Part shown: positions 33,127 to 54,018 of the stretch, one piece after another
Layout: the number at the start of each line of letters is the position of its first letter
How positions within the stretch are numbered: the stretch's first letter is position 1
From: an uncultured Eubacteriales bacterium
GTDB lineage: Bacteria > Bacillota > Clostridia > Oscillospirales > Oscillospiraceae
Length of the DNA: 64,000 nt
Direction: 5' to 3'
Assembly: GCA_900319635.1 (NCBI GenBank)
Contig: ONPF01000001.1
Location: forward strand, 54,832-118,831
Made by a program: the position numbers and the translations under genes
The notes under the pieces: generated by a model
The model's database searches: none
What the model was told of the DNA's origin: nothing
What the model saw: the letters and a program-made list of their open reading frames with translations, nothing else

Positions 33127-35505
33127 TCAGCCCTGCTCGCTGAGATACAGACTGACTCTTGACTGGATCACCTTCGCGGTATCCTCGGCGCTGCGGTCGC
33201 CGGCAAAAAAGACGGCGGCTTCAGCGTTCACGATCTCAAAAATCTCGGTAGTACTGCCGGGCAGGACTTCCGCAAGCTCCAGCAGAGCCAGGAAGCGATC
33301 CGCCTGTTCCCGGGTAAGCCCGTAGTATTCAAAGCTGATGCTTCCGCCGCTCTCGTCAGCCATCCCCATACCGCCGCGGGAGATGGGGATTCGCTGTCCA
33401 TTTTCGTCCAGAAGATACTTTCCGTCCTCATTTTGCATGTATTCGATGCGCATTGCGTCCTCCAGCTGACTCTGGAACACGTCACGGCGCAGCGGAATAC
33501 CGTATTGATTGGTCTGGTACTCTTCCTTCAGAAACATGCGCAGGAATTCCCAGCCGGCTTCTTTGTCGGAGCAGGAAGCGCTCATTCCTAAGCTGTTTCT
33601 CATCTGCAGGTAGCTGCCGCATCCGCTGCGGCAGGGAAAGCCGATATAGGTGCAGGCTCCGGCGAAATACTGGTCGCAGTAGCTCAGATCCTCCATGCTG
33701 CCGATGCTGCTCTCCATCAGCATTTGCTCGCCGGAGGCGATTCGCATCAGTTCTGAGCTATACGCGCCGTTCGGGTCCACTTCGGCGGGAAAGCGGGCGC
33801 AGAAACGAAGCAGCTCGCAGAAATCATCATTGTCAAAGTCGCAGCTGCCCTCCTGCCAGTTCACATAGTCGTTCATTCCCGCGAACATCATCTCCATCAG
33901 CACCTGATCCCGTGTGCTGTAGGGGCCCAGGATCGCGCAGCCCTCGGGCATGGTGTCGGCCGCCTCCTCCAGATCCCGGATCGTCCATCCCGGCTCGGTG
34001 CCGACCACATCCGGCGAGCCGAGCAGGGTATAAATCGAAAAGCCGGGCGCGATCTGGTACAGTTTTCCGTTCATCTCCATCGCTTTCAGAACACTGGGCA
34101 GAAAATCCTCTCTCTGCAAGACAGGGTCTCCATCCAGATAGGGGTACAGATCCTCCAGAAGTCCCTTGGCCGCAAGCTGCTCATAGGGCAGGCCGCGCAG
34201 CATCAGCAGATCCGGCATCTCTCCGCTCATGATCTGGACATTGAGTCGGTTCATCTCCCCTATGACCTCCGCATCCGAAACGCCGGACATGGCCTCAGAA
34301 TAATCCAGGATCTGGATGCGGACATCCGAGTGGCTGCGGTTGAAGCGGAGTACCAGCGGACTCACTTCATCCGGTGAAAAGGTCCCCAGCGTCAAAACCC
34401 GCTTTTCCTGCAAAGAGGAGCGCTCGGTTCTTTTGATCTCCACCCGGTCAAGCTCCTGCTGGTCTGCGCAGTAGCACAAAAAGCCGCCGTCCTCTTTTGC
34501 GCGTAGCCAAAGCAGTCCCTCCGCGCCAAGATCGCAGTCCAGCAGATTCAGGATCAGCTCCTCCCGTTTCTCCGGAATGCAATAGCCGTAGAGCTTCGTT
34601 CCGCTTGTAAAGTAGAAGTCATATTCGCCCGCTCCGGTGTAGCAGCGATCCGGCCAGTTTTGAAGGCTGAGACTCTCGCTGACCTCTCCCCTCTCCATGT
34701 CCAGGATCGCGATCCGAGATCCCCTGCTGTCTGTGCCGACGATCCCGACCCGTCCGTCCGGCAGCAGCAGCGCCTGACTTGCCCAGCCGTTCAGCTCGAT
34801 CTGCTGCAGCAGTGTGCCGTCGGCAGAGAAAACGAAGGTCGTTTCGTTCGACGGGACGATCAGTCGATCCCCGGAGTCCATGACGGCACTGCGCCAGTCA
34901 AGCCACACGCTGTCCGACCCTCCTTCCCACTCCAGCGGATCAGAGGAGAGAACTGCGCCGTTCTCGTCCAGGAAGGTGACTTTGCAGATGTCGGCCATCT
35001 GATAGTAATCGTAATAGGAGGGGTCGTTTTCCATCATTCCCTCCGGCCCGTCCCACCAGGATTCGTAATACCGCTCCACAAGTGCGAGCCGTCCGTCCTC
35101 CCGGGGGAACAGGATCTCGATATTCGCGCTGCATGAATAATTCTTGCGCTCCTCCTGTTTTGCGGAGGCTTCCAGTACATAATCCAGCGGACGCAGCTCT
35201 CCGTTCAAGCCCACGAAATACAGCTTCTGCCCAAAGCTATCATACTGCCCCACATATTCCGGCGTCTCGCCCTCGGGGATCTCCCCCACGGCGAGCTGCT
35301 CTTCGCTTGCGGCATAGAAGCCGTCCTCCGTGAAGCAGACGGGCTGCAGATCCCGATCCTTGTTCAGCGGGATCTTGTGAAAATCCGCGGCATAGACCAG
35401 CTCGGTTTCCGCTGTGCTCTCCTGCTCCTCCGTGCCGCAGCCGGTCAGGAGGCAAAGCGCAAGGCATATCAGGAAAAGAACCGGCAGGAGCTTCATTTTG
35501 TTCAT
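33127..35505 (-). CDS. Propeller-like/solute-binding fusion lipoprotein (paralogue 1)
   Basis: A 792-residue lipoprotein: signal peptide with lipobox LLTGC (Cys23). Residues ~40-365 are beta-rich repeats resembling a propeller (ENGAVLSSDP, FSADGTLLQQ, LLPDGRVGIVG). Residues ~370-792 form an extracellular solute-binding domain (LTLGTFSPDEVSPLVLRFNR, PDLLMLRGLPYEQLAAKGLL, CSDKEAGWEFLRMF). The ATG at 35505 has AAAGGAG 8 nt upstream. It is the third gene of an RR-HK-lipoprotein operon, 16 nt after the kinase, with no permease nearby. It is clearly paralogous to the protein at 51559-54018. A role as ligand co-receptor for the kinase is inferred. Confidence 0.85.
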   Translation of the reverse strand: MNKMKLLPVLFLICLALCLLTGCGTEEQESTAETELVYAADFHKIPLNKDRDLQPVCFTEDGFYAASEEQLAVGEIPEGETPEYVGQYDSFGQKLYFVGLNGELRPLDYVLEASAKQEERKNYSCSANIEILFPREDGRLALVERYYESWWDGPEGMMENDPSYYDYYQMADICKVTFLDENGAVLSSDPLEWEGGSDSVWLDWRSAVMDSGDRLIVPSNETTFVFSADGTLLQQIELNGWASQALLLPDGRVGIVGTDSRGSRIAILDMERGEVSESLSLQNWPDRCYTGAGEYDFYFTSGTKLYGYCIPEKREELILNLLDCDLGAEGLLWLRAKEDGGFLCYCADQQELDRVEIKRTERSSLQEKRVLTLGTFSPDEVSPLVLRFNRSHSDVRIQILDYSEAMSGVSDAEVIGEMNRLNVQIMSGEMPDLLMLRGLPYEQLAAKGLLEDLYPYLDGDPVLQREDFLPSVLKAMEMNGKLYQIAPGFSIYTLLGSPDVVGTEPGWTIRDLEEAADTMPEGCAILGPYSTRDQVLMEMMFAGMNDYVNWQEGSCDFDNDDFCELLRFCARFPAEVDPNGAYSSELMRIASGEQMLMESSIGSMEDLSYCDQYFAGACTYIGFPCRSGCGSYLQMRNSLGMSASCSDKEAGWEFLRMFLKEEYQTNQYGIPLRRDVFQSQLEDAMRIEYMQNEDGKYLLDENGQRIPISRGGMGMADESGGSISFEYYGLTREQADRFLALLELAEVLPGSTTEIFEIVNAEAAVFFAGDRSAEDTAKVIQSRVSLYLSEQG

Positions 35506-35521
35506 GTTTTTCTCTCCTTTC

Positions 35522-37552
35522 TCATCCCTTCGGGAAGCGGAGGGTGACCTTGAAGAGATCCCCGTCCACCTCAATGTCCAGATCGCCCTTTTGCAGCTTC
35601 ATCAGGCTCATGGCGATGGCAAGGCCCAGGCCGTTGCCGTCTGTGTGCCGGGAGGCATCCCCCTGCACAAAGCGCTCGGTGAGCTCCGCCGCGCTGAGGT
35701 TCAGCGGCTCCCGGGAGATGTTGCGGAAGGTCACGCGCGCCTCCTGGTCCTGCGCCTGCAGGCTCAGGTAAACCCGGGTGCCGGGCATGGCGTATTTCAC
35801 GATGTTATTCAGCAGGTTGTCGAAGACCCGCCAGAGGTGCCGCCCGTCCGCCATCACCGTCACCGGGCTCTCGGGCTTTTGCAGCACCAGCTCCAGCCCG
35901 GCCTTTTCCAGCTTCTCGCCGTACTCCCCCGCCGTCTGATCCAGAAGGACGGAGAGGTCGCAGGGCTGCAGGTTCACCGAGAGATTGCCGGTGGAGGCCT
36001 TGGAGGCCTCGATCAGATCCTCAATGAGCTTTTTGAGCTTTGCCGACTGGCGGGACAGTACCTCCAGATATTCCTGCTGCTTTTCCGTCTTCGGCTCTTC
36101 CTTCTGCAGCAGATCCACATAGTTCACGATGGAGGTCAGCGGCGTTTTGATGTCGTGGGAGACGTTGGTGATGAGCTCCGTGCGGAAGCGTTCGGACTTC
36201 ATGCGCTGCTCCACAGCATCGTTCAGCCCGTCCCGGATATGGTTCAGGTCGTGGGCGTGATCCTTGAAGTCCAGGACCAGGTTCTTCTCGTCAATGGAAT
36301 AGTTCATGTTGCCGGAGGCGATCTCCTTCGCTCCCTTGCGCAGGCGCCGGAAGGCCAGCACCGCATACAGCGTCGCCCCACCGATCAGAGCCCAGCAGAG
36401 GAACCACCAGAAGGTGGTACGATTATAGGAAAAAATCGCGCTGTGCCGCCGTCCCAGATCCAGCAGCGCAAAGACCGCAAGCCCCAGCGCCCATTTCCAG
36501 AGGATGGGCAGATTGCGGAAGATCGCTCCTGCCCCCTGCCAGCACCATCGGAAGAAGCGCACGAGCATACAGCCGCTCCAGAGATTCCCCAGCTTCACCC
36601 GCACGGCAAAGCTCATGCACCAGAGCAGGAAGGTTAGGCCGATCAGAAGTACGCAGGGGATTAGGGCAAAGAGGATCTCCGGCCAGTTGAAGCCTCCCAA
36701 CAGAGGCGTCATGAACACGACGATTGCGGCGATGACAAGGATTGTGAACACATCAAAGGGGATCTTCTCCACAAAGCTGGGGACGATCTCGTCCGTGCCC
36801 TTTCGATGCCCGGCGGCGCAGAGCAGGAAGATAAAGACCAGCACGCCCAACAGAAAGCACAGGCCCGCGATCCACAGGAAGGTGAAACGCCAGGAATACA
36901 GGAAATTGGCCAAGCTGATGCGCGTTTGAAAGACCCCTTGCCCGCTTTGATCGGCCAGCACATAGCCCTTCACGGTGATTTCATGCTGCCGGATCCATTC
37001 TCTGGCCTCTTCCTCTGTGGAGAAGCGTTCTTCTTCTCCGGACAGGAGTATGGTCGCTACCCACAAAGGTTTCTCCGAGTTCTCCGGCGAGATGTGATCA
37101 GAGCTGCTCGGAGCAGGCGCGGAAGGGGCCATGGTAGCAGAGGGAACAACGGTGATGTCCCCGTCCTCATAGCTGATCTCCTCCGAAGTCCGAGGAACGA
37201 GCGTGTAATCCGGGCTGAACTGTCTGTTGATCTCCAGCAGGGTCTCTGCCCCGTCGTAATCAGAATACAGCTCCTTTCCGTCGCAGTCAAAGATCCGTAC
37301 CTGCAAGCCCTCGTAGCTCGACGCATCCTCCGGCGCTGTTCCCCAGAGAACAGACCAGCCGATCTCACCGATATAGCCTTCCGCCTCAGCCCCGACCGTC
37401 CGGTACAGAAAATCCTGATAGCCCAAGGTATAGCCCTGCCATTCGTACAAAAAGATCGCGCTGATGGCAGAGGCTGTAAAAACCAGCACCAGCAGGCACA
37501 GCAGGATCACGGCGATCATCTTGGCGGCAAAGCTGCCGTATAGTTTTTTCAT
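35522..37552 (-). CDS. Multi-pass sensor histidine kinase
   Basis: A 676-residue histidine kinase. Membrane helix ~10-35, an extracellular domain of ~180 residues (~36-215), then about five helices (~218-405). HisKA has ELITNVSHDIKTPLTSIVNY, with phospho-acceptor His466, and the HATPase domain shows DNLLNNIVKYA and DGNGLGLAIAMSL. AAGGAGG precedes the ATG. It lies between its response regulator and the solute-binding lipoprotein, so the large ectodomain may read the state of that lipoprotein. The signal is unknown. Confidence 0.92.
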   Translation of the reverse strand: MKKLYGSFAAKMIAVILLCLLVLVFTASAISAIFLYEWQGYTLGYQDFLYRTVGAEAEGYIGEIGWSVLWGTAPEDASSYEGLQVRIFDCDGKELYSDYDGAETLLEINRQFSPDYTLVPRTSEEISYEDGDITVVPSATMAPSAPAPSSSDHISPENSEKPLWVATILLSGEEERFSTEEEAREWIRQHEITVKGYVLADQSGQGVFQTRISLANFLYSWRFTFLWIAGLCFLLGVLVFIFLLCAAGHRKGTDEIVPSFVEKIPFDVFTILVIAAIVVFMTPLLGGFNWPEILFALIPCVLLIGLTFLLWCMSFAVRVKLGNLWSGCMLVRFFRWCWQGAGAIFRNLPILWKWALGLAVFALLDLGRRHSAIFSYNRTTFWWFLCWALIGGATLYAVLAFRRLRKGAKEIASGNMNYSIDEKNLVLDFKDHAHDLNHIRDGLNDAVEQRMKSERFRTELITNVSHDIKTPLTSIVNYVDLLQKEEPKTEKQQEYLEVLSRQSAKLKKLIEDLIEASKASTGNLSVNLQPCDLSVLLDQTAGEYGEKLEKAGLELVLQKPESPVTVMADGRHLWRVFDNLLNNIVKYAMPGTRVYLSLQAQDQEARVTFRNISREPLNLSAAELTERFVQGDASRHTDGNGLGLAIAMSLMKLQKGDLDIEVDGDLFKVTLRFPKG

Positions 37553-37570
37553 ATTTCAGCCCTCCTTTTT

Positions 37571-37597
37571 CGGGCAACCACAGGTCGCCCCTACGAT
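37571..37597. repeat. Short intergenic repeat fragment
   Basis: On the minus strand it reads GTAGGGGCGACC...GGTTGCCC, a partial match to the left part of the 41707-41802 element (GTAGGGGCG plus a palindromic GGCGACC core). It sits between the response-regulator and kinase genes. Confidence 0.5.
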
Positions 37598-38280
37598 TGG
37601 AACTTATAGCCCTGACCCCAGATCGCTTTGATATAGCGGGGATTGGCGGGATCGATCTCCAGCTTCTCCCGCAGGTGCCGGATGTGGACGGCTACGGTGC
37701 TCTCGGCGCCGTAGGGCTCCTCGTTCCAGACCTTGCGGTAGAGATCCCGGGGATGAAAGACCCTGCCTGGATTCTGCATCAAAAGCTTCAGAATGTCGTA
37801 CTCCCGGGGCGTCAGGTTTACCGGCTCTCCGTCCACAGTGACGTTCTTGCTGCCGTCGTCCAGCGAGACGCTGGCGATGGTGAGCACGTCCTCCCGCACC
37901 GTGCCGCCGCCCAGCTGCAGATAGCGCCGCAGCTGAGAGCGCACCCGGGCCAGCAGCTCCACGGGGTTGAAGGGTTTGGTCACATAGTCGTCCGCCCCCA
38001 CGTTGAGGCCCAGGATCTTATCCGTGTCCTCGCTCTTGGCAGTCAGCAGGATCACCGGCACGTTGGAGCTCTCCCGCAGCTTGGAAAGGGTGCTCACGCC
38101 GTCCAGCACCGGCATCATCACGTCCAGCAGCACCAGGTGGATCTCCTCCCGCTCCAGGATCGCCAGCGCTTCCCGGCCGTTATAGGCTGGAAAGGTCTGA
38201 TAGCCCTCCGCCTCCAGATAGATCTTCAGCGCCGAGACAATGTCCCTGTCGTCGTCGCAGATGAGAATGTTGTTTGTCAT
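37591..38280 (-). CDS. OmpR-family response regulator
   Basis: A 229-residue response regulator: receiver domain with phospho-acceptor Asp53 in LVLLDVMMPVLDG, acidic DDDRD pocket near residue 9, and Lys in YVTKPFNP; a winged-helix DNA-binding domain begins near 130 (LTPREYDILKLLMQ, YGAESTVAVHIRHLREKL). It is the first gene of the RR-HK-lipoprotein operon. Its promoter carries a TCTTAA direct repeat (38346-38362) also found before the second response regulator, suggesting autoregulation. Confidence 0.95.
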   Translation of the reverse strand: MTNNILICDDDRDIVSALKIYLEAEGYQTFPAYNGREALAILEREEIHLVLLDVMMPVLDGVSTLSKLRESSNVPVILLTAKSEDTDKILGLNVGADDYVTKPFNPVELLARVRSQLRRYLQLGGGTVREDVLTIASVSLDDGSKNVTVDGEPVNLTPREYDILKLLMQNPGRVFHPRDLYRKVWNEEPYGAESTVAVHIRHLREKLEIDPANPRYIKAIWGQGYKFQS

Positions 38281-38304
38281 GTCTTCCCCTCACCTCTCGA
38301 GAGC

Positions 38305-38333
38305 ATTATACCCTCCCGGCCATTAAGAACCAA
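38305..38333 (-). promoter_or_regulatory. Promoter of RR-HK-lipoprotein operon 1
   Basis: Minus strand TTGGTT (38328-38333), 17 bp, TATAAT (38305-38310). The TATAAT is perfect, but the -35 box is weak, which fits activator dependence. Confidence 0.65.
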
Positions 38334-38345
38334 GAGGGTATTGGA

Positions 38346-38362
38346 TTAAGAAATGTTTAAGA
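38346..38362 (-). promoter_or_regulatory. Predicted response-regulator box (TCTTAA direct repeat)
   Basis: On the minus strand TCTTAA-N5-TCTTAA (11-bp period) lies 12 bp upstream of the -35 box; a third TCTTAA (38323-38328) touches the -35 box. OmpR/PhoB-type regulators typically bind such repeats. The same motif precedes the second regulator at 54104-54119. Confidence 0.55.
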
Positions 38363-38375
38363 GAGCAGATAATTG

Positions 38376-40181
38376 TCACTCGTCCAGCTTGAGGACGGCC
38401 AGGAAGGCCTCCGTGGGGATCTGGACGGTGCCGAGCTGGCGCATCTTCTTTTTGCCTTCCTTCTGCTTTTCCAGCAGCTTCTTTTTCCGGGTGATGTCGC
38501 CGCCGTAGCACTTGGCCAGCACGTCCTTGCGCATGGCCTTCACCGTCTCCCGGGCAATGATTTTCCCGCCGATGGCCGCCTGGATGGGCACCTCGAAGAG
38601 CTGGCGGGGAATGTTCTCCTTCAGCTTTTCGCAGAGCTTGCGGGCGCGGGGATAGGCCTTCTCCCGGTGGGCGATGAAGCTGAGTGCGTCCACCTGGTCG
38701 CCATTTAGAAGCATATCCACCTTCACCAGGTCGCTGAGCTTGTACTCGGAGAACTCATAGTCCAGGGAGGCGTAGCCCTTTGTGCGCGCCTTGAGGGTAT
38801 CGAAAAAGTCGTAGATGATCTCGTTGAGAGGCATCTCATAGTGCAGCTCCACCAGGCGGGAATCCAGGTACTGCATGTTCTTGTACTCGCCCCGGCGATC
38901 CTGGCAGAGGGGCATGATGTTGCCCACATAGTCGTTGGGCGTGATGATGGAGACCTTCACATAGGGCTCGTAGGCCTCTGCGATGGAGGGCACGTCCGGA
39001 TAATTGTGGGGATTGTCCACCATGACCACGCTGCCGTCGGTCTTCACAACCTTATAAATGACGGAGGGCAGGGTGGTGACCAGCTCTAGGTCAAATTCCC
39101 GCTCCAGACGCTCCTGGATGATCTCCATGTGGAGCATGCCCAGGAAGCCGCAGCGAAAGCCGAAACCCAGCGCTACCGAGCTCTCCGGCTCGTAGCTTAA
39201 AGATGCGTCGTTGAGCTTGAGCTTTTCCAGCGCGTCCCGCAGGTCGGGGTACTTGGAGCCGTCCTCGGTGTAGATGCCGCAGAAGACCATGGGACGGGCC
39301 GGACGGTAGCCGGGCAGGGCCTCCGCCGTGGGACGCAGCGCTTCGGTGACGGTGTCGCCCACCTGGGTATCGGCCACGTTCTTGATGCTGGCGGTGAAGT
39401 AGCCCACGTCGCCGGCGGCCAGCTCGTCACAGGGATCCAGGCCGATGGGGCGCAGGTGACCCAGCTCCACCACCTTGTAGCGCGCGCCGGTGGACATGAG
39501 CAGCACCTCGGTGTCCCGGCGGATGCGCCCGTCGATCAGGCGCATGAAGACGATGACGCCCCGGTAGTTGTCATACTGGCTGTCGAAAATCAGTGCCTTC
39601 AAAGGCGCGTCCGGATCTCCGGAGGGGGCGGGGACGTTTGCAACGATGTCCTCCAGCACGGCGTCGATGTTGATGCCGGCCTTGGCGGAGATCTCCGGCG
39701 CGTCCTGGGCGGGGATGCCGATGATCTCCTCAATTTCGTCCTTCACCCGCTGGGGCTCCGCCGCGGGGAGGTCGATCTTGTTCACCACCGGCAGGATCTC
39801 CAGGTTGTTGTCCAGCGCCAGATAGGTGTTGGAGAGGGTCTGCGCCTCCACGCCCTGGCTGGCGTCCACCACCAGCACAGCGCCCTCGCAGGCGGCCAGC
39901 GAGCGGCTCACCTCGTAGTTAAAGTCCACATGCCCCGGGGTGTCGATCAGATTCAGGGTATAGTTCTCCCCGTCCCCCGCCTTGTAGGTCAGCCCGACGG
40001 CGCGGGCCTTGATGGTGATGCCCCGCTCCTTCTCCAGATCCATGTTGTCCAGGATCTGATCCTCCATGATCCGCTGCTCCACCGCGCCGCACTTTTCGAT
40101 CAGGCGGTCAGACAGGGTGGACTTGCCGTGGTCGATATGGGCAATGATCGAGAAATTCCGAATCTGCTTTTGGTCGATCAT
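38376..40181 (-). CDS. lepA: Elongation factor 4 (LepA)
   Basis: A 601-residue ribosome-associated GTPase. G1 [19 protein letters not shown]3 [15 protein letters not shown] and G4 NKIDLP are intact. LepA-specific C-terminal features include [19 protein letters not shown] and [19 protein letters not shown]. It promotes back-translocation or initiation-related steps under stress. Its ATG overlaps the stop of a small XRE regulator by 4 nt, so the two are translationally coupled. The shared promoter is at 40526-40554. Confidence 0.97.
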
Positions 40182-40492
40182 AGTTCTTCCCCCTCAATGT
40201 TATTCAGCGCGCTCTCCGCCCGATTTAAGAGATCCCGCATCTCGTTCAGAAACAATCTGGAATCCCGCACACTCACATCGCCGGGATGGGCAGAGCGGCA
40301 CAGCAGGTAATCCGCCGTCACGCCATAGTAATCGCAGGCGCGGCACACAAAGCTCAGCCCCGGCTCCCGCGCGCCATTCTCGTAGTGGCTCAGCAGCGCC
40401 TGGCTGATGCCCAGATCCGCCGCCGCCTGCCGCTGGCTGATGTTGCGCCCCTTCCGCAGGGCGGAAAGGGTCTCGGGAAAATTACGTTCCAT
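40178..40492 (-). CDS. Small XRE-family regulator
   Basis: A 104-residue protein with an N-terminal helix-turn-helix ([20 protein letters not shown], then [18 protein letters not shown]) and a short helical C-terminal part. The ATG at 40492 has AAGGGGAG about 6 nt upstream; the longer frame to 40642 runs through the promoter. It overlaps lepA by 4 nt. It probably represses or tunes its own operon and perhaps the divergent pta; target sites were not identified. Confidence 0.9.
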
Positions 40493-40525
40493 GGGATTCT
40501 CCCCTTCGATTTGATAACAGGGAGT

Positions 40526-40554
40526 ATTATATAGGCAGGATCGCGCTTTGTAAA
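40526..40554 (-). promoter_or_regulatory. Promoter of XRE regulator-lepA
   Basis: Minus strand TTTACA (40549-40554), 17 bp, TATAAT (40526-40531). Start near 40519. Confidence 0.75.
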
Positions 40555-40574
40555 CAGAAAATTCATCAAATGCC

Positions 40575-40603
40575 TTGAAAAAAACGGCGCTTGGTGTTAA
40601 ATT
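40575..40603 (+). promoter_or_regulatory. Promoter of pta
   Basis: TTGAAA (40575-40580), 17 bp, TAAATT (40598-40603); leader ~32 nt with GGAGGG before the ATG. Confidence 0.65.
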
Positions 40604-40641
40604 ATGCATGTTGATCAAAAAACTATTGGAGGGTAAAACCA

Positions 40642-42380: not shown

Positions 42381-42929
42381 TTAATCTGTGTTCTGCTCTG
42401 GCTCCACGCGATAGAGACAAATGGTATCACCCGGCTCGTAGATTTCGCTTCTTTCCACGATGAATTCGATATGGTCTTCGCATACTTTTGAAACACTCCA
42501 GTATTCGCTTATCACTTCTTTTAGCTCTGGATCGTTTTCCAAATGTTCGTCCGGGCCAATGTAAATATGGTATTCCTCGCTGGGTCCGCCCTCTTGATAG
42601 ACGATGGAAATGCTTTGACCATCGGCGGCGAGATACGTTCCCTCCCCGTGCTGCCAGTTGTAGCCTTTCTCGATATATGTGATGCCATTTCCTCTGGTTA
42701 CTTCACGATCCCGAATATCTGTATTGACGATCGTAAATTCAATCCGGCCATCTTGTGTTCGCCAGGTGGAGCCGACCTGATTACACGGCATGCCGTCATA
42801 ATATCCAGACGACCATTTCCTATATCTGAACATAGAAGAACAACCTGACAGAAATACAGCAGTGCTTATCACAAGGACGAGCAAAAACAAAAATACCACA
42901 AATTGTTTTCTTGTGAGAGAAATATTCAT
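42381..42929 (-). CDS. Uncharacterised lipoprotein
   Basis: A 182-residue predicted lipoprotein: basic N-terminus, hydrophobic stretch ~10-27 and lipobox FLSGC (Cys near 30). The mature part is beta-rich with many aromatic residues (GITYIEKGYNWQHGEGTYLA) and gives no family that I recognise. AAAGGATG precedes the ATG. Base composition is AT-richer than the surrounding genes and palindromic repeats flank it on both sides, consistent with recent acquisition. Confidence 0.75.
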   Translation of the reverse strand: MNISLTRKQFVVFLFLLVLVISTAVFLSGCSSMFRYRKWSSGYYDGMPCNQVGSTWRTQDGRIEFTIVNTDIRDREVTRGNGITYIEKGYNWQHGEGTYLAADGQSISIVYQEGGPSEEYHIYIGPDEHLENDPELKEVISEYWSVSKVCEDHIEFIVERSEIYEPGDTICLYRVEPEQNTD

Positions 42930-45570: not shown

Positions 45571-45584
45571 CAAGACAGCAGCCA

Positions 45585-45616
45585 TCACCCGCCGAGAGAT
45601 CGGCGGGTGATTTTTC
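45585..45616 (+). terminator. Intrinsic terminator of the SDR gene
   Basis: ATCACCCGCCG-AGAGAT-CGGCGGGTGATTTTT hairpin with T run. Confidence 0.88.
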
Positions 45617-45639
45617 ATGCCGCAAAACCGGCTTTCCCC

Positions 45640-45668
45640 TTGCACTTGTGCGGGATTGATGATAGAAT
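45640..45668 (+). promoter_or_regulatory. Promoter of the EEP-family gene
   Basis: TTGCAC (45640-45645), 17 bp, TAGAAT (45663-45668). Confidence 0.65.
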
Positions 45669-45697
45669 TCAATCAATACACGAACGGAGGATGCCTT

Positions 45698-46774: not shown

Positions 46775-46789
46775 GCTGCGATCAAATTG

Positions 46790-46823
46790 AAAAGAGACAG
46801 CCTTTCGGGGCTGTCTCTTTTTG
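46790..46823. terminator. Bidirectional terminator
   Basis: AAAAGAGACAGCC-TTTCGG-GGCTGTCTCTTTTT: long stem with A and T runs, between the EEP gene and the convergent MacB-core-like gene. Confidence 0.9.
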
Positions 46824-46828
46824 CATAT

Positions 46829-47905
46829 TTACGTCTCGCCGGGGTGCTTTTTTTCCCAGTGTTTGCGCTGTTTTTTCCGGATCGCCTCGCCTATTCTGTC
46901 CTTCGCCTTTGGCAGGACCTCATCGCCAAGCTTCTCTTTGCCGCGTTTCAGCAGGCGGATCAGCCAGACGACTGCCACGACCACCGGGAGCGCCGCGAAG
47001 AGGAGCCCCAGCAGCAAGAGCAGCGCGCACCAGTCCTCCACCGCCCGGGCGGCGTTCTCCCAATAGGGAAAAATCACGCCCTGGTTCTGCATAGAGCGGG
47101 TGCCGAAGTCCCCGATCAGGCTCAGCACGCGTCCAAAGGAAAAGCGGCCGCTGTTCTCCACGATGACCCCTTGGCCGATGGGGAATTTCTCCTTCACAAA
47201 GCTGAACGCAAAACCCCGCACCGGCTCCGCCAGCACCAGCTCATAGCAGGTGGCGCCGGCGTCCTCGTTCAAGAGCACATAGGCGTCATAGGACATATAA
47301 AGTCCCATGCCGGCAGTATAGGCGCGCCTGCTTGCAAAATCCTGTTCCCGCTGCACAACGCCGCCCACCACAAAGGGAACGCCGTTGATCTCCATGGGCA
47401 TCCCCTGGAGATCGGTGCCGCCGAAGAGCAGCCAGGCCAGATCCTCATCCAGCAGGACGCGATCCTTCATCAGATCGCTCTCCGCAAGATAGGTGCCGTT
47501 CAGCAGGCGGATGGGGTGAAAATCAAAGAAATTGCCTCCTACCGCGATGGCGCTTGCCTCACCGTGTCCCAGCTCACTGGCCACCTTTACCTTGCCGGTG
47601 GTACACCAGGCGTCCCGGAAAAGCCGGGTGTCGGTGTCCGCCTCATAGCCGGCGCCATGGAGCTGATCCAGAATGGCGTAGCGGAAGGCGTAGATCTCGT
47701 TGAGCTGAATGGGCTCATCCACCGCCAGGTAGCAGGAGAGCTGGGTGAAGCTCTGCTCCCCCTCCCCCTGCCAGCGCTCAGCCGCCTGCTGGGAAGAGAG
47801 CAGCCGTGTCAGTCTCCCCTCCGCGAGGAAGCAAGCCGCAGAGGCCAGCACCAGGCAGGCGCAAAGGATCAGGAAAACGATCCTTTTTTTCGTCAGTTTC
47901 TTCAT
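46829..47905 (-). CDS. MacB periplasmic-core-like membrane protein
   Basis: A 358-residue protein with an N-terminal helix (~9-28), an extracellular domain (~40-285) resembling the MacB/FtsX core (AIAVGGNFFDFHPIRLLNGTYL, VLLDEDLAWLLFGG, MEINGVPFVVGGVV), a C-terminal helix (~292-320) and a basic tail. The usual three-to-four-helix FtsX permease core is missing, so it is not a complete MacB-type permease. It follows the HlyD-like adaptor gene by 7 nt and probably works with it. No ATPase is encoded nearby. Confidence 0.75.
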   Translation of the reverse strand: MKKLTKKRIVFLILCACLVLASAACFLAEGRLTRLLSSQQAAERWQGEGEQSFTQLSCYLAVDEPIQLNEIYAFRYAILDQLHGAGYEADTDTRLFRDAWCTTGKVKVASELGHGEASAIAVGGNFFDFHPIRLLNGTYLAESDLMKDRVLLDEDLAWLLFGGTDLQGMPMEINGVPFVVGGVVQREQDFASRRAYTAGMGLYMSYDAYVLLNEDAGATCYELVLAEPVRGFAFSFVKEKFPIGQGVIVENSGRFSFGRVLSLIGDFGTRSMQNQGVIFPYWENAARAVEDWCALLLLLGLLFAALPVVVAVVWLIRLLKRGKEKLGDEVLPKAKDRIGEAIRKKQRKHWEKKHPGET

Positions 47906-47912
47906 AGCCGCG

Positions 47913-49613
47913 TCAATCCGCCAGGCGAACCAGATCGCCGTTCTTGATGGGTGCGCTGCTGGTGGTGATCACATGGTCGCCCCAGCCGAATTCGCCGGAG
48001 ATGGCCACATTGTTGTCATCCTCCGCCAGGACATCCACCAGCACACGACGGGCAACATAGCGGTTCCCCAGGGGGGAATTGCGGGACTCGACCTTGAAGA
48101 CATAGTAGCCGGTGGAATCGCTGTGAAGGGCGCTCTTGGGTACCACATAGTCATAATTTGCGCTGCGGGATCCGATGGAGATGGTGAGCTGGGCGCCGGT
48201 GGTCACATCGCCGCTCAAGTCAAAGTTCAGGAGCTTGTTGGTCTGGGGATTCTTGGGGTCTACCCGGATGCTCTCCAATGTTGCGGTGACCTGGCTGCCC
48301 CAGTTGTAATTGTTGACGGTGGCGCTGTCCCCGATGCGCAGGCGGGCGGCCTGTTCATTGGGCACGGAGAAGCTCATGGTGTAGCCCATGTCGGGCACTT
48401 CGATGGTGCAGAGGATGCTGTCCTTTGTCACGGTGTCCCCCGCGGTGCACTCGATGGAGAGGATGGTCCCGGAGACCTTGGCCGTTACCTGGTTATCCGT
48501 ACCGCCGGAGAGCTCCTCGATCTTCTTTTTCTGCTCCTCGATCTGGCGGTTCAGATCGCGCAGCTCAATGCCAAGGTTCGCGTTGGTTCTGGCCTCGGCG
48601 TTCTTTCGCGCGTCCAGAGCGGACTGCAGCTCGATATAATTGAGATAGGCCTCGTCCCTTTCCGCGACGGCCTGCTCAAACTCGGGAGAGGTGTTAAACT
48701 GGTTCATTTCCGCCTGGATCCCGTCCACCTTGCTCTGGGCGGCGTCCACCGCGGCGGTGGAGACGGCATTCAGAGCGGTCTCCGCGTCGCTCACGGCGTT
48801 TTTCTTCTCCAGCAGCTCCGTCCATTTTTCCAGCTTCCGATCCAGCTCGGGATCTGGATTCTCCTCCGACATGCTGTTGGTGAGCTCGTCGATACGGGCC
48901 TGGGGATCATCCAGGTAGCGCTGCTGATAGGCGATCTGCTCCGGGTCGGTCTCGTTGGCGTTCCAACCCTCCGCCAGATATACGGCCTGCTCCGCGGCGA
49001 GGCGTTCGCTCTCCGCCGAAGACAGGGCGCTGCGGGCTTCCTCCATCAGAGCGTCGTAAGCCTCCTTGGCAGCATCCCGCTCGGCAGTTGCCTTTTCTAG
49101 CTCCCGCTGCAGATACTGGTAGCCTTCGGAGTCCGTATTCCCGCCGGGATCCATGGCTTTCACCGCGTCGTCGGCCTTCTGATAGGCTTCCAGGGCGTTC
49201 TGCACGCGGATCTCATCTGCGGTATAGTCCGTGCTGGAGCCGCCCAGGGCTGCGCGCTGATAGCTCATCTGCAGCTGATAGAGCTGCTCCTGTGCCTGCT
49301 CCAGCTCGGATCTCTCCCCGCTGCCCAGGACAAATAGCACGTCTCCGGCCTCCACGGTCTGGCCGCTCTTCACCATGACGGCGCGGATCTCCCGGGTCTG
49401 CTCGGCCTTCACCACATGGGTGCCGTTGGCCTGTACAGTGCCGGTACCGCGCACCTTGGCGTTGATGGTGCCGTCAGACACATACTGGGTCGCAACCTCG
49501 GGCAGATTGCGATTCATGATCGTATTGGAAAAGAAGGTCAAGACCAGCAGCACCGCCAGCAGGATGATGGCGACGTTTTTGACCCACTCTCTCTTTTTCG
49601 CTTTGATTTCCAT
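47913..49613 (-). CDS. HlyD/RND-type membrane-fusion adaptor protein
   Basis: A 566-residue adaptor: one N-terminal helix (~13-30), a biotinyl-lipoyl-like half (VRGTGTVQANGTHVVKAEQT, VKSGQTVEAGDVLFVLGSGE), a long coiled-coil region (~100-365), the second lipoyl half (VTAKVSGTILSIECTAGDTV) and beta-barrel domains to the end. Adaptors of this type serve ABC exporters such as MacB-like systems in Gram-positives. It sits between sugar-type ABC permeases and a MacB-core-like protein on the same strand, an unusual mixture. GGAGG lies about 10 nt before the ATG. Confidence 0.88.
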   Translation of the reverse strand: MEIKAKKREWVKNVAIILLAVLLVLTFFSNTIMNRNLPEVATQYVSDGTINAKVRGTGTVQANGTHVVKAEQTREIRAVMVKSGQTVEAGDVLFVLGSGERSELEQAQEQLYQLQMSYQRAALGGSSTDYTADEIRVQNALEAYQKADDAVKAMDPGGNTDSEGYQYLQRELEKATAERDAAKEAYDALMEEARSALSSAESERLAAEQAVYLAEGWNANETDPEQIAYQQRYLDDPQARIDELTNSMSEENPDPELDRKLEKWTELLEKKNAVSDAETALNAVSTAAVDAAQSKVDGIQAEMNQFNTSPEFEQAVAERDEAYLNYIELQSALDARKNAEARTNANLGIELRDLNRQIEEQKKKIEELSGGTDNQVTAKVSGTILSIECTAGDTVTKDSILCTIEVPDMGYTMSFSVPNEQAARLRIGDSATVNNYNWGSQVTATLESIRVDPKNPQTNKLLNFDLSGDVTTGAQLTISIGSRSANYDYVVPKSALHSDSTGYYVFKVESRNSPLGNRYVARRVLVDVLAEDDNNVAISGEFGWGDHVITTSSAPIKNGDLVRLAD

Positions 49614-49651
49614 ATTCCCAAATCCTCCGTTTCCGGTTGATGTTCCGCGGC

Positions 49652-50527
49652 TCAGCCCTTGACGCTGCCCGCGTTGGCGATGCCCTCCACCAGGTACTCC
49701 TCACCGTGGAGGAAGAGCAGCAGCGACGGGATCATATACAGGGTGGCCATGGCAAAGGCCAGGCCGATCTCCCCGGCGTTGATATTGGACAGAAACACGC
49801 TCAGAGGCTGTGCTTCCGCGTCTTCCAACAGGATAAGCGGCTGCTCCACCATGTTCCAGTAGTCGATAAATACCAGGATCGCAATGGAGTAAAGCGCCGA
49901 ACGGCATTGGGGCAGGCAGATGCGGGTGAAGATCTGCCACTCCCCCGCCCCGTCCACCTTGGCAGACTCGATCAGCGAATACGGGATGCGGCGCATGAAC
50001 TTGGTCAGCAAAAACACCGAGAAGGGAGCAAAGATACCCGGCAGGATGATGGCCCAGCGGGTATTGTAGATGCCGAGCCACTTGCTGACCAGGAAGTTCG
50101 GCACCAGGGTGACCTGGTAGGGCATGAGCATCAGGATCACATAGAAGAAGAAAATGCTGCTGCGCACTCTCCCCCGCCAGCGGGTAAAGCTGTAAGCCGC
50201 AACCGAGGCCACTACCAGCTGGAAGACCACGATGGGGACCACCAGAATGATGCTGTTCCAGTATTTTACCAGATACTCCGGAGACTTGAGCAGTCCCGTC
50301 TCGTACTGGGAAAAGCTGACCTTCTCCGGAATGAACTTCAAATTGACCTTGTCGGAAACATAACCGCCGTTGAGGCCCTTGAAGATCTGGCCGTAATTGG
50401 CCTTGAGCTCCGTCTCGGACATAAAGGAGTTTGTGATGGTCAACACCGTGGGCAGGAGGAAGAGAACCGCAAATACAAGGCACAGCAGGAACATGGTCGT
50501 GCGGCCGAAATAATGTTTCTTTTTCAT
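49652..50527 (-). CDS. Carbohydrate-type ABC permease (MalG/AraQ-like)
   Basis: A 291-residue inner-membrane permease with six predicted helices. The EAA loop for ATPase contact reads ESAKVDGAGEWQIFTRICLP near residue 190. The first ORF of the pair overlaps its start by 4 nt, so the two permeases are coupled. It is expected to import an oligosaccharide or similar solute with the lipoprotein at 51559. The energising ATPase is not encoded here and may be a shared MsmX-type protein. Confidence 0.93.
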   Translation of the reverse strand: MKKKHYFGRTTMFLLCLVFAVLFLLPTVLTITNSFMSETELKANYGQIFKGLNGGYVSDKVNLKFIPEKVSFSQYETGLLKSPEYLVKYWNSIILVVPIVVFQLVVASVAAYSFTRWRGRVRSSIFFFYVILMLMPYQVTLVPNFLVSKWLGIYNTRWAIILPGIFAPFSVFLLTKFMRRIPYSLIESAKVDGAGEWQIFTRICLPQCRSALYSIAILVFIDYWNMVEQPLILLEDAEAQPLSVFLSNINAGEIGLAFAMATLYMIPSLLLFLHGEEYLVEGIANAGSVKG

Positions 50528-51408
50528 CCCTCCACGTCCTTTCCAAACCAGTTTTCAATGACAAAGAGGGCAAGGATCAAAATGACCATGACCAGAGCCA
50601 GGACGATAGCTGCGGCGGAGAGCTTCTGGTAATCCAAATGCCGGAAGGTGCCGTTCATGAAATGCTGCAGCATATAGAGCTCCGGCGGATAGTCCTCCGT
50701 CAGCAGGTAGATCTCCCGGAAAATCTTGAAGGAATTGATCAGCGACAGGATCGTGACGAAGAGCACCGTAGGCGAGAGATAGCGGAGCTTGATGGCAAAG
50801 AACTTGTACCACTCGCTGGCGCCCTCCACATCGGCCACCTCCAGAAGCTCCTTGGGGATGTTGGAGAGCCCTGCCATGAAAAGGATCATGTTATAGCCCA
50901 GATTCTTCCACAGGAAGAGCAGCACCACCACGTACACCGCGTAATTGGACACCAGCCAGTCGTGAGGCTGCCCGCCCAGGAGGGTGACAAGCTCGTTCAC
51001 GGTGCCCTTGTTGCTGAACAGCACCTGCCAGATCAGCACCACCGAGGCCACCGGCACCATCATAGGACTGAGAAAGAAGGTGCGGAATTGGGATTTCAGA
51101 GGGATGCGCGCCTCCAGCATCAGCGCCAGCACCAGGGACAGGATCACCGCCAGAGGTACGGCTAGAACGGAGAAATGCAGCGTGTTCTTAGACGCCTCCA
51201 GAAAGGCGGAGTTTTGAAACAGCGCAATGAAATTATCCAGAAAAACAAAATTGTGGGTCGCCACGCTGTCGATCATGGAATAATAGAGCACGACGCAGAA
51301 GGGCAGGACAAAAAACACGCCCACCCCCAGGAGACTGGGCGAAAGGAAGCAGAGGCTCCGCGCCAAATCTTTTCGTTTTTCTCTTTTTTTGATCCGGTTT
51401 TTTTCCAT
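50524..51408 (-). CDS. Carbohydrate-type ABC permease (MalF/UgpA-like)
   Basis: A 294-residue permease with six predicted helices. The EAA loop is EVADVEGASEWYKFFAIKLR near residue 195. A basic cytoplasmic N-terminus (KNRIKKREKRKDLARS) is typical of UgpA/LplB-type proteins. It follows the solute-binding lipoprotein gene by 150 nt, has its own promoter (51457-51485) and overlaps the second permease gene by 4 nt. The substrate is unknown. Confidence 0.93.
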   Translation of the reverse strand: MEKNRIKKREKRKDLARSLCFLSPSLLGVGVFFVLPFCVVLYYSMIDSVATHNFVFLDNFIALFQNSAFLEASKNTLHFSVLAVPLAVILSLVLALMLEARIPLKSQFRTFFLSPMMVPVASVVLIWQVLFSNKGTVNELVTLLGGQPHDWLVSNYAVYVVVLLFLWKNLGYNMILFMAGLSNIPKELLEVADVEGASEWYKFFAIKLRYLSPTVLFVTILSLINSFKIFREIYLLTEDYPPELYMLQHFMNGTFRHLDYQKLSAAAIVLALVMVILILALFVIENWFGKDVEG

Positions 51409-51456
51409 ATTTCAACCCGCTTCAACAGTAAGAGTAGTTTTGCGAGACAATTTAAC

Positions 51457-51485
51457 ATTATACATCACGCGCAATTCATGCGCAA
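51457..51485 (-). promoter_or_regulatory. Internal promoter of the permease genes
   Basis: Minus strand TTGCGC (51480-51485), 17 bp, TATAAT (51457-51462). The spacer repeats TTGCGC 12 bp further on. Confidence 0.6.
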
Positions 51486-51516
51486 GATTTCGTGCAAAAT
51501 TCTGATAAGGCAGACG

Positions 51517-51550
51517 ACCGGGTGCCGGCAAAGCCTGCTCGGCACCCGGT
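51517..51550 (-). promoter_or_regulatory. Intercistronic stem-loop after the solute-binding lipoprotein gene
   Basis: ACCGGGTGCCG, 12-nt loop, CGGCACCCGGT: a perfect 11-bp stem 9 nt after the stop codon, without a T run. It may protect the 3' end or dampen readthrough, a common device for making more binding protein than permease. Confidence 0.6.
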
Positions 51551-51558
51551 ATTCTCTC

Positions 51559-54018
51559 TCAGCGGCGCTCGTTGATGTACAGGTTCATCTTGCTCTGAAC
51601 CAGACGGGCGACCTCCTCGGCGCTCTTGTCGCCGGCGTAGTAGGCCTCCGCCTGGGAGGTCACGATGTCAAAGATCTCCGTGTCATAGGTCATGAGCTTG
51701 TCGCAGGTGATGACAGCCTCCCAGAGCTTGTCGGCCTGCTCCTGGGTCATGGCGTAGATCTTGTACTCCTTACCGTCCTCCGTGGCATAGCCGCCCCTGG
51801 GGACCTGGATGCGCTGGCCGTTATCGTCCAGGACATAATTGCCCTTGTCGTCCTTCTGATACTCGATCTCCATGGCTCTGTCCAGCTGCTTCTGGTAGGC
51901 GTCCAACCGCACGGGGATGCCCGAGACATTCTCCTGGGCCTCCGGCAGCAGGTAGCTGCGCAAAAACTCCCAGGCCGCTTCCTTGTCCTTGCAGGTGGAG
52001 CTGATGGCAAAGCCGGACTCCAGGCTCATGTAGCTGCCCACGCCGTTATTCGTGGGGTAGCCGATGTAGGTGCAGCCCTGCTCGCCGAACATCACGTCGT
52101 TCCACATCATGGCTTCCACATTGTAGAGGTAGGCTGTGGTCAGCATCTGCCGTCCCTGGGCGATGCGGGTCTCGGAGGACTCCCACTCGATGTTCTCGGG
52201 GATGGAGTCCGGGAACTGCGCCGTAAACTCCAGCATCTGGATGAAATCCTCAGACTCAAAATTGCAGGTGCCGTTCGTCCAGTCCACATAGTGATCCAGA
52301 TCCGCCGCCAGAAGGGTGGTCAGAATGTCCTTGCGGGTGACGTACATATCCATAGGGTCGCAGCCCTCCGGCATGGTGGAAAGAGCCTCCTGGAGCTGCG
52401 CATAGTTCCAGCCCGGCTTGTCGCCCACCACCGCGGCGGAGCCAACCAGCGTCTGAACGTTAAAGGAGGGCGTGATCTGGTAGAGACCGCCGTTCACCTC
52501 CAGCGCCGTCAGCACATTGGGGAAGAAATCCTCCCGCTTCAGCTCCGGATCCTTGTCGATCATGGGGTAGAGATCTTCCAGCAGGCCCTTGGCCGCAAGC
52601 TGGGAGTAGGGCAGCTGCCCCAGAGAAATGATGTCGGGCATCTGACCGGACATTATCTCCGTCAGAAGCTTGGTGCGTCCGGCATCATAGTTCTCATTCT
52701 CGTAGTCGTTATATTCAGAGTAGTCCAGGATCTCGATGCGGACGGTATCGCTGTGACGGTTGAACTCCACGACCTTGTCGTAAATATCGTCCACATACAG
52801 CACCGCCAGCGTCAGCGTCTGCTTCTGCGGCAGAGTATTAGAGGGAACCAGCGACAGGGTAACGATCTCGGTTTTGACAGTATCGTTCTTCCACTGGTTG
52901 ACGGTACCCACCATGTGTCCGTCGGGGAAGACGTGGAGGCCGGCCATGTTATAGCCGTTCACGTCCACATCAATAAAATTGAGGACGCGGGTCTTCTCCT
53001 GGCTCTCCAGCTTATAGCCGTAGAGGTACATGCCATTAACATAATAGAAATCGTAATTTCCGTCACCAGGCAGAAGATTACCGACATCGTCGGGGAGCTG
53101 GATCGGCTCATCCAGACGCTTTTTCTCTCCATTGATGGGATAGAGCGCCATGCCCCGCTCGGAATAGCCCAGACCGGCCATTCTGCCATCCTGCATCGGG
53201 ATCAGACGATCCATCCAGACATCCGAATTGATCTGATACTTGAGGCTTCCGTCGGGGGCGAAGGCGTAGATGACCTGGTCTCCGAACACAAGCAGGTTGC
53301 CCTCCTCATCCAAGACGCAGGAATTGAAGTTCAGCCACATATCCTGGGCGTCAAAGTCGATCTGTACGCAATCCTTTTCCGAACCGTCGGCGTTCAGATA
53401 GCGCAGATAGTAGATGTTGGAAGAACGGTACTTCTCCCAGATCTCGTCGCCGCCGCTGCGGAGCTCGGCCTCGGTGCCGTCAAACCAGCCGGTATACTGG
53501 CTCTCCACGGCGATCAGGCCGCCCTCCCCGTCATCCAGCAGGGTCTGCAGGTTCGAGCCCGAGTAGAACTCCAGCTTGTCCTCCGTATTCTCCAGCGCAG
53601 GCAGAGACTCATACTTGGGCAGAGAACGCACGCTGCCGTCAAAGCCCACGAAAAAGATCTTGTACCCGTAAATCGCGTACTGATCCGCATTGGCAGGTAC
53701 TGGAACATCAAGCTCTCCGGTGGAAACAGCGGACTCCTCTTCCCCGGTCTCCTCGCCGTCCTCCGCATTTTCTTCGGGAGGCGGCATCTCGCCGATCTTG
53801 CCGTAGCTCAGGCCGTAGAAGCCCTCGTCGGTATAGACCACAGGGTTGATGCCGTCTGTCAACTCATCGGACTTGACCTGCAGAAAATCGGCTTTATAGA
53901 CCATTTCCGGCCTTTCGGTCTCCTTGGGGTCTTCCGTCTTGTCGCCGCCGCAGGCGGCCAGGCTCAGCGCCATGGCAAGAACCAGCAGCAGAGCCAAAAT
54001 AGAACGTAACTTTCTCAT
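51559..54018 (-). CDS. Propeller-like/solute-binding fusion lipoprotein (paralogue 2)
   Basis: An 819-residue lipoprotein with lipobox SLAAC (Cys23). Residues ~40-400 are beta-rich repeats (VLDEEGNLLVFGDQVIYAFA, MQDGRMAGLGYSERGMALYP, VFPDGHMVGTVNQW) and residues ~405-819 form an extracellular solute-binding domain (PDIISLGQLPYSQLAAKGLL, CKDKEAAWEFLRSYL). An acidic insert (ENAEDGEETGEEE) lies near 75. AAGGAGG is 5 nt before the ATG at 54018. It shares many blocks with the 33127-35505 protein. It lies upstream of two permease genes and is divergent from a two-component system, suggesting both uptake and signalling roles. Confidence 0.87.
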   Translation of the reverse strand: MRKLRSILALLLVLAMALSLAACGGDKTEDPKETERPEMVYKADFLQVKSDELTDGINPVVYTDEGFYGLSYGKIGEMPPPEENAEDGEETGEEESAVSTGELDVPVPANADQYAIYGYKIFFVGFDGSVRSLPKYESLPALENTEDKLEFYSGSNLQTLLDDGEGGLIAVESQYTGWFDGTEAELRSGGDEIWEKYRSSNIYYLRYLNADGSEKDCVQIDFDAQDMWLNFNSCVLDEEGNLLVFGDQVIYAFAPDGSLKYQINSDVWMDRLIPMQDGRMAGLGYSERGMALYPINGEKKRLDEPIQLPDDVGNLLPGDGNYDFYYVNGMYLYGYKLESQEKTRVLNFIDVDVNGYNMAGLHVFPDGHMVGTVNQWKNDTVKTEIVTLSLVPSNTLPQKQTLTLAVLYVDDIYDKVVEFNRHSDTVRIEILDYSEYNDYENENYDAGRTKLLTEIMSGQMPDIISLGQLPYSQLAAKGLLEDLYPMIDKDPELKREDFFPNVLTALEVNGGLYQITPSFNVQTLVGSAAVVGDKPGWNYAQLQEALSTMPEGCDPMDMYVTRKDILTTLLAADLDHYVDWTNGTCNFESEDFIQMLEFTAQFPDSIPENIEWESSETRIAQGRQMLTTAYLYNVEAMMWNDVMFGEQGCTYIGYPTNNGVGSYMSLESGFAISSTCKDKEAAWEFLRSYLLPEAQENVSGIPVRLDAYQKQLDRAMEIEYQKDDKGNYVLDDNGQRIQVPRGGYATEDGKEYKIYAMTQEQADKLWEAVITCDKLMTYDTEIFDIVTSQAEAYYAGDKSAEEVARLVQSKMNLYINERR

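Follow-up and report, generated by a model that had tools for sequence, protein, structure and literature searches.

The window analysed here (the whole stretch of DNA, 64,000 nucleotides) encodes two large lipoproteins of the same kind, each next to a two-component system, which raises the question of whether these proteins are sensory inputs of the kinases, targets of the regulators or receptors for transport. The two proteins, here called SBPX copies 1 and 2, are 792 and 819 amino acids long and are both encoded on the minus strand according to the ORF check. An earlier note on this DNA had read them as paralogues, which holds: their pairwise alignment spans nearly the full length, with 287 identities in 803 positions (36%, E 2e-176), and the common sequence block QLAAKGLLEDLYP is present in both. 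Both are predicted to be lipoproteins with a signal peptide and a lipobox cysteine, Cys23, which was read by eye and lies in a column that is invariant in the family alignment. The C-terminal half is of the solute-binding protein (SBP) type, as had been proposed. Pfam SBP_bac_8 (PF13416) matches residues 418-669 in copy 1 and 440-709 in copy 2 with 39.9 and 46.4 bits (gathering cut-off 27), and we assign this half to SBP_bac_8/SBP_bac_1.

The N-terminal half had been called propeller-like by eye. Pfam searches with this half gave nothing significant in either copy, the best match of copy 1 being PQQ_2 (E 0.24). A profile made from an alignment of 115 N-terminal halves taken from relatives matched beta-propeller chains among the PDB sequences, including the Reg_prop propellers 3va6 and 3ott; the best match (E 2.9e-28) was Cake10, a designed propeller. 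Single members gave weak Pfam matches (E <=0.1) to Reg_prop (15/115), SGL (11/115) and PQQ_2 (8/115). An AlphaFold2 model of the whole of copy 2 (pLDDT 77.7, pTM 0.73) retrieved sugar-binding SBPs, with CbpC (7x0o) at the top. Since the matches listed for this whole chain were SBP-type chains and fusions only, the propeller was modelled separately, with residues 34-371 of copy 1 as the only input. Foldseek listed 50 matches to the resulting model (TMq 0.34-0.49), all of which we take to be propellers. A separate N-terminal domain is thus predicted, and profile search and structure prediction bear out the by-eye call. Together, the profile matches, the copy 1 propeller model and the copy 2 SBP model confirm SBPX as a beta-propeller fused to an SBP domain (Table 1).

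Table 1. Features of the two SBPX loci, with positions in the window (TM, predicted transmembrane segment; RR, response regulator; HK, histidine kinase).
Feature	Position	Strand	Details
SBPX copy 1	33127..35505	-	lipoprotein; propeller ~34-371 and SBP domain ~372-792; third gene of RR-HK-SBPX
Propeller domain of copy 1	34393..35406	-	AlphaFold2 on its own, pLDDT 95.9, pTM 0.91
Histidine kinase 1 (HK1)	35522..37552	-	676 aa; one TM, outer domain ~195 residues, five more predicted TM, HisKA and HATPase_c
OmpR-type response regulator 1 (RR1)	37591..38280	-	domain search
Candidate promoter of RR1-HK1-SBPX1 operon	38305..38361	-	CTTAA-N6-CTTAA 38346-38361; TTGGTT 38328-38333; TATAAT 38305-38310
MacB-like periplasmic core domain protein	46829..47905	-	two predicted TM
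HlyD-type adaptor	47913..49613	-	one predicted N-terminal TM
MalG-like permease	49652..50527	-	EAA loop
MalF-like permease	50524..51408	-	EAA loop
SBPX copy 2	51559..54018	-	lipoprotein; propeller ~38-396 and SBP domain ~397-819; heads five-gene operon
Candidate SBPX2 promoter	54077..54119	-	TTAAGA-N4-TTAAGA 54104-54119, N21, TATAAT 54077-54082
Candidate RR2 promoter	54135..54162	+	TTGTAT 54135-54140; TACAAT 54157-54162; repeat ends 37 bp before -10
OmpR-type response regulator 2 (RR2)	54186..54875	+	domain search
Histidine kinase 2 (HK2)	54868..56214	+	448 aa; two TM, outer domain ~120 residues, HAMP, HisKA

The gene arrangement is also as the earlier note described it. Copy 1 closes an RR-HK-lipoprotein operon without a permease, and the nearest permease in the window lies 14 kb away within the copy 2 operon. 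That operon has the order SBPX copy 2, MalF, MalG, HlyD, MacB-core; it contains the announced permeases, two in number, together with the HlyD and MacB-core genes, which had not been named before. Each copy adjoins its own OmpR-type two-component system, and the RR2-HK2 pair is divergent from the lipoprotein gene. The two kinase architectures recur in relatives: in copy-1-type kinases a single TM is followed by an outer domain of about 195 residues and five predicted TM, and in the copy-2 type two TM go with about 120 outer residues. The outer domain spans about residues 31-227 in HK1 and about 37-159 in HK2.

A scan of genome contigs found one relative only, and whole-genome searches were therefore used. 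With the genome of the window counted, SBPX was found in 47 of the 150 genomes sampled from the taxonomic family (E <=1e-20) and in 58 of the 61 genomes of the genus (E <=1e-30). The window's own genome has six full-length members and one C-terminal fragment at a contig end. Oscillospiraceae bacterium RGIG2711 (L022), a goat omasum metagenome assembly, carries an SBPX that is 80% identical to copy 1 in the same gene order, RR-HK-SBPX. For a first classification we used 136 SBPX ORFs of at least 600 aa in 126 loci, 68 from the genus and 68 from the family outside the genus. Upstream sequence was usable for 65 of the 68 top-ranked genus copies (three with short upstream sequence were dropped) and for 65 of the 68 family copies (three were marked unknown). 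The genus copies had been ranked by similarity to an alignment of seven sequences; since two of these are the window copies, the top-ranked sample favours their orthologues. To offset this bias, a second genus sample of 40 loci was drawn from lower ranks (49 copies, five dropped for short upstream sequence, 44 usable). Neighbouring genes for RR, HK, ECF sigma, anti-sigma-like, BlaI, M56 and MalF/MalG proteins were marked within 3.5 kb, with profiles seeded from genes of the window's own genome. One genus locus (L180) has RR, HK and the promoter site, and its SBPX gene is split into two ORFs below the length limit, so that it is not among the counted copies.

Among the 65 top-ranked genus copies, 44 stand beside two-component genes (a class that takes in loci with RR alone or HK alone where the contig ends), six beside ECF genes, one is fused to M56 and 14 have no regulator. 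The 44 comprise 33 with a divergent RR (copy-2 type) and 11 with a same-strand upstream HK (copy-1 type). The link to OmpR-type systems claimed for the window is therefore kept within the genus, but most copies outside it are without one: there a same-strand upstream HK was found in 3/68 copies, other two-component genes nearby in 7/68, an ECF gene upstream in four and downstream only in two, and no regulator in 49/68. Because most copies outside the genus have no two-component genes, there is no obligate link between the SBPX family and such systems. Outside the genus a transport context is the more frequent one, since a regulator is absent nearby in those 49 copies and a MalF-like permease lies downstream in 27/68. 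The lower-ranked genus sample gave yet another picture, with ECF sigma a commoner partner than two-component genes (22/44 vs 5/44). An ECF gene lies upstream in 22 of these 44 copies (one also with an RR); one copy has a regulator downstream only, 16 have none, and in two of the five copies of the RR/HK class (L261 and L265) the sole two-component gene is an RR at a distance of 3-3.5 kb.

By our estimate, about 3% of genes would have an OmpR-type RR within 3.5 kb under random placement, and about 7-8% an ECF-like gene. The window's own genome has seven OmpR-type RR genes, two of which (RR1 and RR2) adjoin SBPX, and 18 Sigma70_r4_2 matches (16 over the cut-off), two of which adjoin SBPX. No OmpR-type RR lies within 3.5 kb of ordinary SBP genes at the six such loci of this genome. 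An SBPX gene adjacent to HK and RR genes, conserved within the genus, is the gene arrangement of an SBP-assisted three-component system.

Conserved DNA repeats of the kind bound by regulators were found upstream of the genes. In all of 32 divergent intergenic regions a TTAAGA-N4-TTAAGA repeat with at most one mismatch lies 21 bp before the best TATAAT-like hexamer on the SBPX side, the -10 being taken as the best TATAAT match 8-31 bp downstream of the repeat. Base-shuffled intergenic regions contain the repeat 0.05 times on average; the shuffling preserved base composition alone, and this control bears on the repeat rather than on its spacing. In L213, the 33rd divergent locus, an exact repeat stands with TACAAT at N22, so that the repeat is present in 33/33 loci with a spacing of N21 in 32 and N22 in one. 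The composite site was found 36 times when both strands of the 126 loci (1.73 Mb) were scanned: 33 of these sites precede SBPX and three precede SBPX-holding ECF operons, one of the latter in the window's own genome (L018); the L213 site falls outside these 36. Of four composite sites in the 40 further loci, three (L253, L266, L270) precede SBPX and the one in L251 precedes an ECF-SBPX operon. The whole genome of the window has 14 repeats with at most one mismatch (nine for a reversed control pattern); among these 14, a -10 at N21 is confined to the copy 2 site and the ECF-operon site. The RR side is looser: the repeat, or a second copy of it, ends 37/38 bp before an RR -10-like hexamer in 17 of 30 regions and 27 bp before it in four, and the remaining nine differ. 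Two loci with an extra gene between RR and SBPX (L054, L212) have a second repeat copy at 38 bp, and by eye L215 looks similar in layout.

TTAAG direct repeats are known sites of the OmpR family, for example of RR_1586 of C. difficile with an 11-bp period (PMC6222199). Because the layout of the TTAAGA repeat is conserved in the divergent loci, it is likely that the neighbouring regulator controls SBPX. This promoter evidence bears directly only on copy 2 as a regulator target. In the copy-1-type operons a different repeat, CTTAA-N6-CTTAA, precedes the RR gene, exact in six of ten loci, with one mismatch in three and with two in one, and TTGGTT-N17-TATAAT/TATACT follows downstream of it in 8/10. 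This repeat was rejected as an SBPX-specific site: the second of its two exact occurrences in the genome lies on contig C42 near another OmpR-type RR gene.

A conserved repeat in the SBPX promoter is what the main rival explanation would lead one to expect. It holds that the two-component systems just control SBPX and, for copy 2, its transporter, that the kinase senses the signal itself, and that SBPX is a transport receptor or, in the case of copy 1, an orphan binding protein. The copy 2 regulator site shows SBPX as an output, so that no sensing role is needed, and the numerous copies that outside the genus stand beside permeases and lack a regulator point the same way. So do the HK1-type kinases at loci without a detected SBPX. 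Such kinases are found in 132 of 400 family genomes (own genome included), and in 19 of 19 other HK1-type loci SBPX was not detected within the sequence past the kinase, which is 0.76-0.79 kb long in 17 of them and shorter in two; a strict pairing of this kinase with SBPX was therefore dropped.

We nevertheless consider a role as output only to be rather unlikely, since in copy-1-type loci a single operon contains both kinase and SBPX and no permease lies close by. In a FastTree tree of SBPX, many deep branches of which are uncertain, the 11 genus proteins of the copy-1 type group as a single clade with a support of 99. An HK lies upstream in all 11, and an RR is seen in ten, the contig of the 11th ending there. 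No MalF/MalG gene was found within 3.5 kb in the fetched sequence of these 11 loci, two of which (L169 and L191) have less than 0.2 kb downstream; L187 and L189 have a MalF-like gene at a distance of 4.6-4.7 kb. Eight of the 33 divergent loci are likewise without a same-strand downstream MalF-like gene within 3.5 kb. Five of them (L164, L170, L175, L178, L196) keep RR and SBPX with no permease in the fetched stretch, which reaches at least 6.4 kb downstream, and this too argues against an output-only role. Of the other three, L171 has 2.1 kb downstream only, and in L173 and L207 permeases lie in other parts of the locus. The distances of SBPX and of the kinase outer domain co-vary after RR and kinase core are regressed out. 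In the copy-2 type (n=31) the partial r is 0.34 for the propeller and 0.30 for the SBP half (permutation p <=0.0005); in the copy-1 type (n=10) it is 0.35 for the propeller, which is not significant (p 0.068), and 0.59 for the SBP half (p 0.012). This co-variation is weak evidence because shared ancestry stays in.

The ECF operons and the M56 fusion would also be unexpected if SBPX were never an input. In the ECF operons the gene at the anti-sigma position encodes one predicted TM in all 25 ORFs of 200 aa or more, and four of these proteins searched against Pfam gave no match over the cut-off. On contig C25 of the window's own genome a BlaI-type gene is followed by an ORF of 1086 aa without stops that joins M56, propeller and SBP, with the junction of M56 and SBPX at about 83.9 kb of the contig. 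Its M56 part scores 138.8 bits (Pfam cut-off 31) and has a HELAH motif; the NCBIfam BlaR1 equivalog reaches 69.6 bits against a cut-off of 400, over residues 179-283 only. This fusion was found in one of 400 family genomes and one of 61 genus genomes, in searches that scored at most two candidates per genome in the family and at most 12 in the genus, among which a fusion should rank first. It could in principle be an assembly chimera. The same sensor was also looked for on other long M56 proteins, and this idea was dropped, as neither propeller nor SBPX occurred in the 12 fetched. C25 resembles BlaR1/MecR1-BlaI in its M56 domain behind a BlaI-type gene. BlaR1 and MecR1 carry a C-terminal penicillin-binding sensor, in place of which the C25 paralogue has propeller and SBP. 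Literature searches for a linkage of SBPs with ECF or BlaR1 proteins gave nothing among the matches listed, judged by titles and the starts of abstracts.

These observations lead us to favour, as moderately probable, a role of SBPX as an extracytoplasmic receptor that feeds several kinds of regulators and in copy 2 also serves transport; the mechanism as a whole appears likely. SBPX would be a membrane-anchored receptor with an SBP half for a soluble ligand, for which the domain family points to an oligosaccharide or another substrate of the CUT1 type as most likely, and with a propeller that may act as a docking or presentation module. Copy 1 would be made together with HK and OmpR-type regulator from one operon without a transporter of its own; the outer domain of the kinase would read the ligand state of SBPX, and the regulator may act on its own operon via the CTTAA-type direct repeat seen there. 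Copy 2 would be the receptor of a MalFG-type transporter with a HlyD/MacB-core extension, and the divergent regulator would switch it on from the repeat 21 bp before the -10, resulting in feedback. In relatives the same module appears joined to pairs of ECF sigma and anti-sigma-like proteins, and once, covalently in the window's own genome, to a BlaR1-type protease behind BlaI. If SBPX does sense, this points to a plug-in sensor for which one kind of switch can be exchanged for another.

The closest known counterpart is CuaDSR of Ruminiclostridium cellulolyticum. In its description (PMC10384115) it acts as a three-component system on the operon of a sugar ABC transporter; as for SBPX, a lipoprotein SBP is encoded beside HK and RR, and the CuaDSR SBP binds the outer domain of the kinase. 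By the same account the mature CuaD, an ordinary SBP of 410 aa, has no propeller and CuaR is of the AraC/YesN type, unlike the OmpR-type regulators linked to SBPX. The SBP-kinase contact is shown for CuaDSR while for SBPX it is proposed. The SBPX systems also differ in their spread over several regulator kinds, and SBPX likely works like such an SBP-assisted three-component system. In the XylFII-LytS xylose sensor an SBP is reportedly complexed with the outer domain of the sensor kinase; SBP and kinase differ from those described here, and this SBP is said to have no propeller. A propeller as proposed sensor module of a two-component system is shared with the Reg_prop sensors (3va6/3ott). In these HTCS proteins the propeller is part of the kinase itself, whereas in SBPX it sits on a separate lipoprotein, fused to an SBP. 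About ten cases of SBP-driven activation of sensor kinases have been characterised (PMC9602780). A large family with one receptor module beside three kinds of switches, together with a sharply conserved promoter site, would open SBP-regulator communication to comparative tests within one genus. More tentatively, and with somewhat less than even confidence, we propose that SBPX is an interchangeable receptor cartridge for OmpR-type, ECF/anti-sigma-like and BlaR1-type switches and the receptor of an undescribed MalFG-HlyD-MacB-core transporter, the MalG-HlyD-core block of which is also kept in further families of the class.

The copy 2 operon joins importer-type permeases to exporter-type adaptor parts. 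An SBP with two EAA-loop permeases, as encoded here, is the composition of a CUT1-type importer. The genes at 46829-54018 do not include an ATPase gene; importers of the CUT1 type commonly share their ATPases. A HlyD adaptor and a MacB-like periplasmic core domain in one operon are shared with MacAB-type systems, and the MacAB exporter has an FtsX/MacB permease with four TM and its own ATPase. The HlyD and core genes of copy 2, by contrast, follow MalF/MalG-type permeases, and the core protein has two predicted TM with no ATPase gene in the operon within the window, so that the composition is not that of a MacAB exporter. As a guess, a HlyD ring and the core protein might serve MalFG as a channel or scaffold seated on its outer side.

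These exporter-type genes could also be taken to mean that SBPX binds an antimicrobial or a cell-wall product, which the HlyD/MacB-core operon removes or traps. VanS is the best NCBIfam match of both kinases (E 2.1e-47 for HK1 and 1.2e-29 for HK2, with scores far below the cut-off) and a BlaR1-type relative exists, in line with such envelope or antibiotic sensing. It is nonetheless improbable, more so than a pure output role, given that the SBP half is of the SBP_bac_8/SBP_bac_1 type with sugar and oligosaccharide binders such as CbpC as best fold matches, and that the permeases are MalF/MalG-type with EAA loops.

Literature searches listed no paper that, judged by its title, deals with the five-gene operon or with propeller-SBP fusions in the journals covered, which include only a minority of the subscription titles. 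The order SBPX-MalF-MalG-HlyD-core was found for 45 of the 136 copies and MalF-MalG-HlyD-core-SBPX for seven. Six have permeases and HlyD with no core gene in reach (four near the end of the fetched stretch, two being the first of tandem SBPX pairs), and the remaining 78 lack such a pair. Of 391 genomes of the class, 24 have relatives of HlyD, own genome included. The other genomes contribute 23 HlyD loci from five further families: HlyD is followed by the core gene in 23/23 and preceded by MalG in 22/23, the remaining locus beginning inside HlyD. In three of these 23 loci, which end soon after, the next ORF starts with the propeller domain.

The SBPX genes code for lipoproteins with an N-terminal beta-propeller and a C-terminal solute-binding (SBP) domain. 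The SBPX promoter of L266 (same genus) carries the complete site, a repeat followed by N21 and a TATAAT-like -10, while no response regulator (RR) gene was detected in the sequence fetched around it, 4.7 kb on the upstream and 1.4 kb on the downstream side; together, this suggests that this SBPX gene is controlled in trans. In L054, L212 and L215 an additional gene separates RR and SBPX, and a copy of the regulator repeat is found on each side of it. L213 (same genus) is the only divergent locus in which the distance between repeat and -10 is one base longer (N22).

Several SBPX genes are clustered in L272, L273 and L274 (same genus), interspersed with genes for ECF sigma and anti-sigma-like proteins. 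The gene at the anti-sigma position of the own-genome ECF operon (L018) is apparently broken across reading frames, whereas it is one longer ORF in L181 and L216.

On contig C25 of the own genome (L017), a BlaI-type repressor gene is followed by one for an M56 (BlaR1-type) protease, the sensor part of which consists of propeller and SBP. Among all genomes searched, this arrangement was found only here. M56 proteins of related genomes (L239-L250, approximately 1000-1350 amino acids) extend far at the C-terminal end; these long parts gave no match to the propeller profile or to that of SBPX and are possibly other sensors.

The small lipoprotein-like ORF of the window had no match in Pfam. The MalG-HlyD-MacB-core block is kept across other families of the class (L292-L314), and there as in the window importer-type permeases are combined with exporter-type adaptor parts.

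Positions of the features, each in the coordinates of its own stretch
Stretch	Position	Feature
Window	42381-42929	lipoprotein-like ORF
Window	46829-51408	MalG-HlyD-MacB-core block
L017	4551-8239	BlaI-type repressor and M56 protease
L018	11126-12146	gene at anti-sigma position
L213	6351	divergent locus with N22
L266	4551	SBPX promoter
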